Of a DNA stretch of 64,000 bases, positions 14,881-17,113 are shown piece by piece (the stretch's first letter is position 1; each line of letters starts with the position of its first letter). Under the pieces are notes generated by a model. The model searched no databases. It was not told where the DNA came from and saw nothing but the letters and a program-made list of their open reading frames with translations. The DNA is from Rhodobacter sp. NTK016B (GTDB lineage Bacteria; Pseudomonadota; Alphaproteobacteria; Rhodobacterales; Rhodobacteraceae). The translations under genes were made by a program, and so were the position numbers. The stretch spans positions 62,001 through 126,000 of the forward strand of contig NZ_JAFKOK010000001.1 of the NCBI RefSeq assembly GCF_017303295.1. Direction: 5' to 3'.

Positions 14881-16077
14881 TCAGCCGATGAAGAGCACGC
14901 CCTCGCCCACCAGCCGCCGCGCCATGACCGCCTGCCCTGCCTCGTCCAGATCGCCGGGCAGGTCACCGACCACGAAGCCCTCCGAGCTCAGTGCCGCGCG
15001 CAGGGTTTCGGCGACATGCAGCGGGAAGGTGATCTCGGAGCCATAGACCGAAAGCGCGACCTCGTCTTCGGTCTCGACGATGGCGTGGATCAGGTCAGGG
15101 CGACGGCGCAGACGGGTGCCCGGCGCAATCGCCTCGGCGCTGAATTGCTGGAACAGCTGCCCCGGCACGACGGGCACGCGGCGCCCCCGATAATTTTCCG
15201 CCGCGGCGGCAAGGGTCGCGTCGGGATCGATCCGGTCGGCGGCGCGGCGCAAGAGGCCCGCCAGCGTCTCGCGCGCGTCGGCGCGGTCGAAATCGCCATT
15301 GGCGAAACCCGGCGGCACCGCGCGGCGGAAATCCAGATCGCTCAGCGCCAGCCGCGAGACGGCATCGACCACCAGCTCGATCCAGCGTTGCGACAGCAGC
15401 CCCGTGGTGATGTGCAAAGACAGCTCTTCGGTCGCGCGCGCGTCATGCACCACCCCCCTCGGCACGTAGCACATATCGCCCGCATGCAGCGTAAAGGTGT
15501 CGATCAGCTTTCCGGCCTCGAACCCGTCGGGGCTGAACGCCTGACTGCGCAGCGGCAGCTCAAGATCGCTTTCATAGATGTTCCACGTCTTCGACCCGGC
15601 AGTCTGCAGCACGATCACGTCATGGCTGTCGTAATGGGTCTTGAAGCCCTGCGCGTCGGGCGGGGTGAAATAGATATTGGTCTGCAGATCGCAGCTGAAG
15701 ACCGTCTCCAGCGAACGGCAATAGGCGGCAAGCTTGGGCAAACGCTTCTGCAAGCCCGGCAGCACGATCGTCGCCCCCTCGGCGAAGTTCTTCACCACCC
15801 GCACCGGGTCGGCAAAGCCATTGGGGGTGATATAGTCGTCATTGGTGATCGTGCGGTCCTTCTGAACGAGGTTCAGCTCGTCCCCCGGAATCTGCATCTG
15901 CGTGAGCACCTGATCGATATCGCCCAGCGACAGGACCCGGGAGTAATAATCGGGATCGTCGCGGCGGATGACGAGATGCTTCTTCTCAAAATACTCGGCG
16001 AAAAACGTGTCTGGCGTGACCGGCGCGATCGCCGTCGCAAAATCCATGGCGGCAGGGGCGGCTGTGTTATCTTTCAT
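14881..16077 (-). CDS. JmjC/cupin-4 Fe(II)/2-oxoglutarate oxygenase
   Basis: A 398-residue member of the cupin-4/JmjC family, which includes the bacterial arginyl-hydroxylase YcfD (RoxA) acting on ribosomal protein L16. The metal triad is visible as His148-x-Asp150 (KTHYDSHDV) and His211 (PRGVVHDA); a conserved VLQTAGSKTWNIY follows the first two ligands, as in YcfD. The C-terminal ~170 residues would be a dimerisation/winged-helix region. The ATG at 16077 is preceded by GTGAG; an in-frame TTG precedes it. It diverges from a gene for a small Tat-exported repeat protein 128 bases away, which suggests that protein as a substrate. The target is unproven; a ribosomal protein is the alternative. 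Confidence 0.85.
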   Translation of the reverse strand: MKDNTAAPAAMDFATAIAPVTPDTFFAEYFEKKHLVIRRDDPDYYSRVLSLGDIDQVLTQMQIPGDELNLVQKDRTITNDDYITPNGFADPVRVVKNFAEGATIVLPGLQKRLPKLAAYCRSLETVFSCDLQTNIYFTPPDAQGFKTHYDSHDVIVLQTAGSKTWNIYESDLELPLRSQAFSPDGFEAGKLIDTFTLHAGDMCYVPRGVVHDARATEELSLHITTGLLSQRWIELVVDAVSRLALSDLDFRRAVPPGFANGDFDRADARETLAGLLRRAADRIDPDATLAAAAENYRGRRVPVVPGQLFQQFSAEAIAPGTRLRRRPDLIHAIVETEDEVALSVYGSEITFPLHVAETLRAALSSEGFVVGDLPGDLDEAGQAVMARRLVGEGVLFIG

Positions 16078-16205
16078 CAAAAACTCACTTTAATAGCCGG
16101 TTTCCCCAACTGAGGCGTTGACCGGAGAACGAAGTTGACCCAACGTAGCTCTATTAGAAGCATTCCAGACTACAGTGATACAACAAGAGCCAGAGGACCA
16201 GTGCA

Positions 16206-16529
16206 ATGGCAGACACGCCGAAAAAAGATCGCAAGACCCTGAAGGACGACGAGATCATCACCCGTCGCGGCATCGGACGTCGTTCGCTTCTTCTGGGCGC
16301 CTTCGGCGGCGGGGCGCTGGTCGCGACGGCGGCGCTGGCGGCCTCGGACAGTGACCCCTCGGATCCGGCCGGCCGTGGCTATTCGGGCATGACCGACAAT
16401 GACGATGGCTCGTATGCCGACGCGTCCGGCCGCGGTCGCGGTTCGGGCGGCTATTCGACCGGGATCACCGATTCGGACAACGGCTCGGTCTATGACCAGC
16501 CGGGACAGGGTCGCGGCGGCACCGACTGA
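16206..16529 (+). CDS. Tat-exported TDSD-repeat protein 1
   Basis: A 107-residue protein I do not recognise. Residues 12-25 (LKDDEIITRRGIG) lead into a twin-arginine signal RRSLLLGAFGGG and a hydrophobic stretch ending ATAALA, a plausible signal peptidase site before ASDSD. The mature part has three degenerate repeats: SDSDPSDPAGRG, TDNDDGSYADASGRGRG and TDSDNGSVYDQPGQGRG. The D-x-D-x-G-x-Y-x-D pattern resembles a calcium-binding loop and the tail is Arg-Gly rich. GAGGA precedes the ATG at 16206. It is divergent from the JmjC oxygenase, is followed by a strong terminator and has a paralogue at 16772. Function unknown; a post-translationally modified exported peptide is my inference. Confidence 0.75.
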   Translation: MADTPKKDRKTLKDDEIITRRGIGRRSLLLGAFGGGALVATAALAASDSDPSDPAGRGYSGMTDNDDGSYADASGRGRGSGGYSTGITDSDNGSVYDQPGQGRGGTD

Positions 16530-16564
16530 TCGCGCCACGCCGGACTATGACTGACAACACCGGA

Positions 16565-16590
16565 ACGGACCCTTCGCGGGTCCGTTTTTC
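16565..16590 (+). terminator. Intrinsic terminator after TDSD-repeat gene 1
   Basis: Stem ACGGACCC / GGGTCCGT with a five-base TTCGC loop, followed by TTTTC. It separates the two TDSD-repeat genes into different transcripts. Confidence 0.85.
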
Positions 16591-16771
16591 GTTGCGCGGC
16601 ACGGCGGGTCGAAGGCCGAACGCGCGCGCGACGCCTCGGTCCGCGCCACCATAGCCCCGCCCCCGGCGAAACACGGGTGTCACAAGCCCGATCACGCGCG
16701 CGAAACACTTGACCGAAAACGATTTCCCGGCCAAAGTTACCACGTTGAAACATATTATTGAGAGCAAACAC

Positions 16772-17113
16772 ATGTCAGACGCAGCCAAATCCAAAAAAGC
16801 CACGCTGACGGATTCCGAAATCACGACCAGCCGCGGTTTCGGCCGTCGCGCCTTCCTGCTGGGCACCTTCGGGGGCACCGCGGCGCTGGCCGGTTGCGTC
16901 GAGACGACGACGATCCGCAGCTCGGGCGTTACCGACAGCGATCTGGGCGCCTATGCCGACCCGGTCGGCGGCGGGCGCGGACGCAGCGGCATCACCGACA
17001 GCGATGTCGGCGCCTATGCCGATCCCGTGGGCCGCGGGCGGGGCCGCCGGGCCTGCACCGACAGCGACCTCGGCTCGTATGCCGACCCGGTGGGCGGCGG
17101 TCGCCGCTGCTGA
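16772..17113 (+). CDS. Tat-exported TDSD-repeat lipoprotein 2
   Basis: A 113-residue paralogue of the preceding gene. The leader LTDSEITTSRGFGRRAFLLG is 16/24 identical to that of protein 1 around the twin-arginine motif. Here the signal ends ALAGC, a lipobox, so a Tat-exported lipoprotein is predicted. The mature part carries three clear repeats of about 21 residues: VTDSDLGAYADPVGGGRGR, ITDSDVGAYADPVGRGRGR and CTDSDLGSYADPVGGGRR, with Cys at the lipobox, before repeat 3 and at the C-terminus. GAGAG lies upstream of the ATG at 16772; an in-frame ATG at 16709 is less likely. The stop abuts the rluD stop with no gap. I know of no function for this family. Confidence 0.75.
   Translation: MSDAAKSKKATLTDSEITTSRGFGRRAFLLGTFGGTAALAGCVETTTIRSSGVTDSDLGAYADPVGGGRGRSGITDSDVGAYADPVGRGRGRRACTDSDLGSYADPVGGGRRC

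Follow-up and report, generated by a model that had tools for sequence, protein, structure and literature searches.

JmjC-family enzymes require Fe(II), 2-oxoglutarate (2OG) and O2, and the twin-arginine translocation (Tat) pathway is the route for cargo that is finished in the cytoplasm. The locus reported here, in which a JmjC oxygenase gene lies beside genes for two small repeat proteins with Tat-type signals (A and B), was found in a 64,000-nucleotide stretch of the Rhodobacter sp. NTK016B genome (contig NZ_JAFKOK010000001.1, positions 62,001 to 126,000 of the forward strand), which we call the window. Its closest described counterparts are BipG and PbsQ, JmjC (cupin-like) hydroxylases of biphenomycin-type pathways for ribosomally synthesized and post-translationally modified peptides (RiPPs; PMC12707348, PMC12257519). 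In the passages on these enzymes the JmjC-type oxygenase gene likewise adjoins a ribosomal substrate, and the reaction is side-chain hydroxylation of a leader-bearing peptide; as BipG and PbsQ tailor ribosomal peptides, the type of chemistry considered below has a precedent. The same passages describe an Orn target (from Arg), a single core and a multi-enzyme antibiotic pathway with a protease and a major facilitator superfamily (MFS) transporter, whereas the window system has one enzyme, repeated units, Tat-type signals, lipoprotein forms and no further recurring enzyme that we noticed.

Other relatives are less similar in context. A survey of RiPP recognition elements (RREs) reports RRE-like domains fused to JmjC (PF08007) and bacterial JmjC homologues in RiPP-like neighbourhoods (PMC12710340), and its passage on these cases mentions neither a repeat substrate nor export by Tat. 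SmaO, an aspartyl beta-hydroxylase, resembles the proposed system in oxidizing Asp in a ribosomal peptide and differs, in the passage describing it, by its graspetide context with a second enzyme, SmaX (PMC13097080). The histidyl hydroxylases NO66 and MINA53 (of Rpl8 and Rpl27a) share 25% identity with the window JmjC and have Ser at a pocket position where it has Gly; the window system further differs from them in its His-poor repeats (99 His in 21,543 residues) and in a dedicated partner with an export signal. YcfD, the arginyl hydroxylase of L16, is more distant in both sequence and fold and has a ribosomal substrate. The initial annotation of this locus knew of no described system of its kind, which holds for the substrate: the repeat family, its link to the enzyme and the Tat route were not found in open-licence PubMed Central (PMC) literature among the matches listed (title and start of abstract). 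It does not hold for JmjC tailoring of peptides, for which the passages on BipG and PbsQ give known cases.

The pairing of this enzyme with this repeat family spans Alphaproteobacteria and Myxococcota, and it was recovered from several genome samples. Among 40 relatives, a JmjC (E up to 1e-5) was present in 10 genomes, with repeat genes close by in all 10. JmjC scores were two-peaked (best scores at least 313 or at most 187 bits), and a match of 300 bits or more, a threshold set after this was seen, is called strong. In the family sample (394 genomes; 13 matched by the repeat profile at E up to 1e-3 and 13 by the JmjC profile at E up to 1e-10), repeats occurred in 11 genomes and a strong JmjC (at least 431 bits) in 11, and these were identical genomes; repeats were absent from two genomes with a weaker JmjC, G282 at 187 bits and G318 with two copies at 140 bits. 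In the class sample (385 genomes; repeat cut-off 1e-4), a JmjC was found in 52 genomes, 12 of them strong (at least 324 bits) and 40 weak (at most 164 bits). All 11 repeat genomes of this sample fell within the 12 strong ones, and no repeat match (0/40) occurred where the JmjC was weak alone. Among 150 Myxococcota, repeats were present in five genomes, all included in the six with a strong JmjC. Fisher tests, uncorrected for kinship, gave p values of 1.3e-21 (family), 2.0e-20 (class) and 1.0e-8 (Myxococcota). Pooled over the three samples, 26 of 26 distinct repeat-bearing genomes have a strong JmjC, and two genomes have a strong JmjC without detected repeats. The sample counts overlap: G000 is in both family and class samples, class and Myxococcota genomes are among the assemblies scanned below, and the 40 relatives overlap with later samples. 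Four weak repeat matches (among the 40 relatives G002, E 0.0036, and G039, E 0.0015; in the family sample G214, 6.9e-4, and G375, 5.9e-4) were rejected as false with 0 units each. The 24 kept genomes, under the same unit test, gave at least three units (overlapping matches) and, where read, a Tat-type segment; no rows were dropped in the class or Myxococcota samples.

Because a search solely around the enzyme was to be avoided, GTDB contigs were scanned with a degenerate DNA pattern of the repeat unit, which yielded at least 116 stretches (of up to 8 kb) from at least 86 assemblies; the counts that follow are among the matches listed. Frames matching the repeat profile were present in all 116 stretches, and 84 of the 86 repeat-bearing assemblies have a JmjC. 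In 59 stretches, each from a different assembly, the JmjC is found together with the repeats, and in all 59 the JmjC frame is within 158 bp of a repeat frame, a distance between stop-to-stop frames that gaps between genes can exceed. Enzyme and repeat gene share a strand in 55 of these and are on opposite strands, as in the window, in four. Two further assemblies (LRRR and WVSN, corresponding to G015 and G177) carry a JmjC, and 23 of the remaining 25 have one of at least 313 bits elsewhere in the genome. A candidate substrate gene beside the enzyme, as is typical of RiPPs, was found in every JmjC-holding stretch, alongside 57 repeat stretches without a JmjC. The initial annotation would have been undermined by repeat proteins occurring mostly without a linked cupin-4 gene; what was found is a JmjC in nearly all assemblies listed, often adjacent. 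The nearest JmjC in the tree, from Pararhodobacter marinus, is 91% identical to that of the window, which points to a Pararhodobacter-like alphaproteobacterium as its source, and Nei-Gojobori dN/dS values for this one genome pair are 0.10 (JmjC), 0.06 (A) and 0.09 (B). These low values, together with recurrence in other families and in Myxococcota, place the pairing beyond chance. No third component was accepted among the recurrent neighbours because these look like housekeeping genes in local synteny, and we noticed no family of proteases or transporters there (names by eye in both cases).

Two observations concern the distribution and surroundings of the pair. In three related Myxococcota metagenome-assembled genomes (MAGs; L148, L197, L211), a gene near the JmjC-repeat pair is TatA-like (by eye). 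The JmjC of the 'Anaerolineae' genome JANQQD has a branch length of 0 beside the JmjC of an Alphaproteobacteria MAG (L186, L188) and is probably mis-binned.

Within the window, the locus comprises the following features:

14881..16077, minus strand: ribosomal oxygenase (ROX)-type JmjC (cupin-4, JmjC_2) Fe(II)/2OG oxygenase, 398 aa, with an H148/D150/H211 triad
16081..16205, between the strands: divergent intergenic region of the JmjC gene and repeat gene A, assigned by position; promoters on both strands are presumed
16206..16529, plus strand: repeat protein A, 107 aa, with a Tat signal, an AxA-type cleavage site (by eye) and three degenerate units
16239..16256, plus strand: leader motif LKDDEI of A, 13 residues upstream of RR (from sequence)
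16278..16283, plus strand: twin-arginine pair of A, in GRRSLLLG (from sequence)
16344..16526, plus strand: repeat region of A (SDSDPSDP..., TDNDDGSYAD..., TDSDNGSVYDQ...)
16564..16589, plus strand: intrinsic-terminator-like stem (AACGGACCC / GGGTCCGTT) with a T run, 3' of gene A (by eye)
16772..17113, plus strand: repeat protein B, 113 aa from ATG, of Tat lipoprotein type, with three TDSDxGxYADPxGxGR units and a C-terminal Cys
16805..16822, plus strand: leader motif LTDSEI of B, 13 residues upstream of RR (from sequence)
16844..16849, plus strand: twin-arginine pair of B, in GRRAFLLG (from sequence)
16886..16897, plus strand: lipobox LAGC of B, behind a hydrophobic stretch (from sequence)
16931..17110, plus strand: three tandem units of B, the proposed substrate sites (tandem-repeat scan)

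The oxygenase gene is back to back with a small repeat gene, which is followed by its paralogue, as first read. A consensus scan reported no sigma-70-like site in 16081..16205, and the stem at 16564..16589 was not among the sites that it reported. The flanking genes checked, of cardiolipin-synthase type and for a pseudouridine synthase, appear unrelated to the pair; a TatC gene is present in the source genome.

Assignment of the enzyme to the cupin-4/JmjC group with an intact His148-x-Asp150...His211 triad was confirmed. The window JmjC matches PF08007 (JmjC_2) with E 4.1e-24 and 85 bits against a curated cut-off of 22. The triad, in the numbering of the 398-residue protein, is invariant in 43 aligned homologues and also kept in 69 rows of the repeat-linked or strong JmjC group. 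The open frame (14881-16080, minus strand) would encode 399 residues from a TTG, and the next codon is the ATG at 16077 that gives 398. A confident model of the protein has the ROX fold over the whole chain, including the C-terminal domain (structure comparison with VIA-align). Of the two residues that contact the substrate His in MINA53 (Tyr167 and Ser257), the window JmjC keeps the Tyr as Tyr136 and has Gly226 in place of the Ser, according to the alignment. This Gly is also found in 14 of 15 weaker bacterial JmjC homologues; the exchange was accordingly dropped as a clade-specific trait and counts solely against a mode of action like that of MINA53 and NO66.

Repeat proteins A and B are 53% identical, share a GRR ahead of a hydrophobic stretch, and both carry a Tat-type twin-arginine signal by which they are predicted Tat substrates. 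The repeats first described as TDSDxGxYADPxGxGRG are clean in B (63-bp period, 2.8 copies, 81% matches, score 234) and degenerate in A, and the lipobox of B is a feature that had gone unmentioned. No curated family covers the repeats: A is without any Pfam or NCBIfam match, and the sole Pfam match of B is Tal-1A_2A (E 0.37, below cut-off). Among 28 members of the repeat family, Pfam gave one member each for two families, and NCBIfam gave two Tat-signal models, TIGR02811 in 14 and TIGR01409 in seven members (E up to 0.01; the one score displayed is below its cut-off), as well as an adhesin model in two members (E 0.00098).

Of 185 repeat frames in the wider collection, 4 weak ones and 16 cut at the end of a stretch were removed; 163 of the remaining 165 have two or more units. 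A Tat-type RR was found by a permissive regular expression in 161 of these 163 complete homologues; of the two negatives, L124 has GRRSS and the other is a fragment frame. A lipobox-type pattern is present in 54 of the 161. Arrays extend to 14 near-identical units and to 415 residues, with a unit spacing mostly of 16-28 residues and up to 47. Over 21,543 residues, the repeat regions contain 26.2% Gly, 13.6% Asp and 10.8% Arg, with 9 Lys, 53 Glu and 99 His. The homologues were selected by a pattern that required TDxD, DP and GxGRG of one unit or more, which biases the following conservation figures upward. In 532 units anchored on TDSDxG, D10 is kept in 99%, G13 in 96%, G15 in 99% and R16 in 96%. 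Anchoring instead on GxGRG, with no Asp demanded, placed an xDxD within 13 residues upstream in 698 of 729 sites (at 12 residues in 630 and at 9 in 58); most of the 20 inspected among the 31 sites without it were overlapping GRGRG registers. Of 933 units anchored on TDxD, 932 have another Asp no more than seven residues away, and the residue after this third Asp is Pro in 632 of the 801 canonical units. Judged from these counts, DxD with the third Asp is the firmest element of the unit, and Arg comes next. Some unlinked loci also carry such repeats: four Rhodobacteraceae genomes (G177, G117, G410 and G401) have a second repeat locus (L114, L115, L116, L117) close to a gene that by eye is TrkH-like, and in G026 a curlin-like repeat gene (by eye; L055:4404-4985) lies near a large unlinked TDxD repeat gene.

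The conserved segment that the initial annotation saw ahead of the twin arginines is real: A and B share L-x-D-x-E-I 13 residues before RR. A generalized form, L-x-[DEN]-x-x-[IV] with L or I in first place and 12-13 residues before RR, is present in all 17 proteins whose linked JmjC falls in the basal rows of the tree (Rhodobacteraceae, Myxococcota and other Alphaproteobacteria), in 22 of 80 proteins from stretches that contribute no JmjC row to the tree, and in none of 15 control proteins, a small set with some doubtful Tat signals among them. The strict motif is missed by one Rhodobacteraceae protein, L126, whose segment reads LSASDI. The suggestion that this segment is more than an export signal is supported by the basal lineages and the controls, but not by a derived clade that includes Maricaulis, Oceanicaulis, Parasphingopyxis, Erythrobacter relatives and Hyphomonadaceae, where none of 65 linked proteins has the motif and n-regions are short. 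The motif looks like an ancestral element for a putative recognition step that was lost later; whether the enzyme would recognize the leader we consider evenly balanced.

The target residue of the putative modification is suggested by a distant relative of the pair. A JmjC encoded on a Streptomyces clavuligerus plasmid (37% identity over 95% of the query) is preceded by the gene of a 48-residue peptide (WP_009999493.1; L293:6775-8170), which in the plasmid collection is present in 16 S. clavuligerus records only. The peptide has LEPDEI near its start, followed by IADNDPSDPP and IADPDPFDPVI, and contains no Arg and no Tat-type signal. Its DxDPxDP corresponds to a short unit form (TDSDPSDP) of the proteobacterial repeat proteins, and since an Arg-free peptide keeps this element, the balance shifts towards Asp, or its direct neighbours, as the target. 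On balance Asp is, by a little, more likely than not the residue to be modified. His was judged unlikely given its rarity in the repeats. The initial annotation had the oxygenase hydroxylating the repeats and gave Arg or His as the targets of known bacterial enzymes of this group; co-occurrence and adjacency favour the repeats as substrate, Arg and His are disfavoured, and the modification itself we infer. The S. clavuligerus peptide and its JmjC may, in their own right, be a minimal Tat-less version of the pairing and a possible unrecognized RiPP.

From gene linkage, we consider it very probable that the JmjC modifies the repeat proteins, and probable that the two form a two-part system of cytoplasmic Asp hydroxylation followed by Tat export. 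In such a system, the ROX-fold JmjC would act in the cytoplasm with the repeat proteins as dedicated substrates, oxidizing an Asp side chain in each T-D-x-D-(x2-5)-D-P-x-G-x-G-R-G unit, most likely to 3-hydroxy-Asp. The N-terminal leader (L-x-D-x-x-I, 13 residues before the twin Arg) may help to present the substrate in the window lineage. The modified proteins would then leave via Tat, A being released to the periplasm and B being anchored as a lipoprotein; this order of modification, export and anchoring or release we infer. The product would be an array of hydroxylated carboxylates, plausibly binding Ca2+ or Fe3+ or structuring the envelope, although such a function, guessed from composition, is rather unlikely to be the right one. 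According to a passage of a review, the pathway accepts a Tat signal joined to an unstructured hydrophilic segment of 100-120 residues (PMC6708511), so export of A and B can be explained without the folding that the initial annotation had assumed; the use of Tat for arrays of up to 415 residues is a puzzle. The most complete version, with 3-hydroxy-Asp placed in every unit before Tat export, a free or lipid-anchored hydroxy-carboxylate polymer that binds metal at the envelope as an undescribed exported class, an enzyme akin to RiPP-tailoring JmjC and a minimal relative in Streptomyces, is conceivable and, taken as a whole, doubtful.

Several observations weigh against this interpretation. A JmjC is absent from 57 of the 116 repeat stretches, and among the matches listed the MAGs G811 and G814 have repeats and no JmjC. 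A strong JmjC occurs without a detected repeat gene in G609, where the contig stops right behind it, and in G934 (Myxococcota); G733 has a second JmjC copy on a contig (C15) without repeat matches, and in the Myxococcota G807 and G963 enzyme and repeats are on separate contigs. To these are added the missing leader motif of the derived clade, the upward bias of the conservation figures, the looser units of some Rhodobacteraceae (ADGDSGSWTDxxxCPRG) and a structure model of the repeats (AlphaFold2) of low confidence (pLDDT 54.9, pTM 0.50). The argument for Asp rests on one Streptomyces peptide, whose LEPDEI is similar to the leader motif and, with Pro in third place, falls outside its strict form, and conservation of Arg16 (96% of 532 TDSDxG units) almost equals that of Asp.

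This last point bears on the explanation closest to ours, in which the pairing is the same and the target is the Arg of GxGRG, hydroxylated at C3 or C4 as by YcfD on L16 or in a manner akin to BipG on Arg-derived Orn, with Asp only shaping the unit; set against the Arg-free S. clavuligerus peptide, we regard it as unlikely. The repeat proteins might also be multi-core RiPP precursors, with the JmjC modifying every core and an envelope protease releasing peptides of about 20 residues that serve as signals, metallophores or antimicrobials. Their leader and core layout in basal lineages would suit this, as would the related JmjC genes in lanthipeptide and YcaO-like clusters and the 48-residue Streptomyces partner, but the recurrent neighbours include no protease or transporter family that we noticed by eye, lipoprotein-type signals (54/161) suggest that the protein stays intact, and unit spacing, mostly 16-28 residues, reaches 47. 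We regard such processing as quite improbable.

Still less probable is that the units undergo an oxidation other than stable hydroxylation, for example cross-linking, cleavage of the backbone at Asp-Pro or a step toward aminomalonate. The frequent Pro after the third Asp (632/801) is consistent with it, and SmaO and SmaX take Asp oxidation further in two steps in another RiPP, according to the passage describing them (PMC13097080), but many genomes show no second enzyme that we noticed next to the pair, and the ROX enzymes named in the literature excerpts are hydroxylases, MINA53 and NO66 being reported to demethylate as well. That the JmjC acts elsewhere, for example on a ribosomal protein as its nearest solved relatives do, and that the linkage reflects shared regulation or co-transfer, is the least credible of the alternatives and very unlikely, given the near-perfect co-occurrence in both search directions. 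The Gly at the substrate-His Ser position of MINA53 and NO66 also argues against it, though 14 of the 15 weaker relatives have this Gly too.

JmjC_2 genes were also seen in other peptide-like contexts. One of the weaker family genomes (L112, G282) has such a gene beside a LanM-like gene and a Nif11-type leader, and the other (L113, G318) has two in a YcaO/TfuA and radical S-adenosylmethionine-like cluster (names by eye in both). Three Streptomyces plasmids (L295, L296, L300) carry a RiPP-like cassette of a 43-49-residue peptide, a JmjC_2 cupin, an aldo/keto reductase and a hypothetical protein, and two of the peptides end in GGTGKSDGND. Small Acinetobacter and E. coli plasmids (L299, L301) have a JmjC_2 cupin next to either an O-methyltransferase and an MFS gene or an ATP-binding cassette (ABC) transporter, and are possible peptide cassettes. 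Further plasmid JmjC genes adjoin unlike short peptides, which would fit a broader RiPP-like role for the family.

The pairing described here suggests an undescribed route of chemical protein modification before export, and joins two fields that rarely meet, the tailoring of ribosomal peptides and Tat export. It offers a testable substrate for this bacterial JmjC group, to which the literature consulted assigns none. Were Asp hydroxylated in the repeats, the products would be a new kind of protein polymer, likely metal-binding, and modification first in the cytoplasm would be the reason why these small Gly-rich proteins use Tat.

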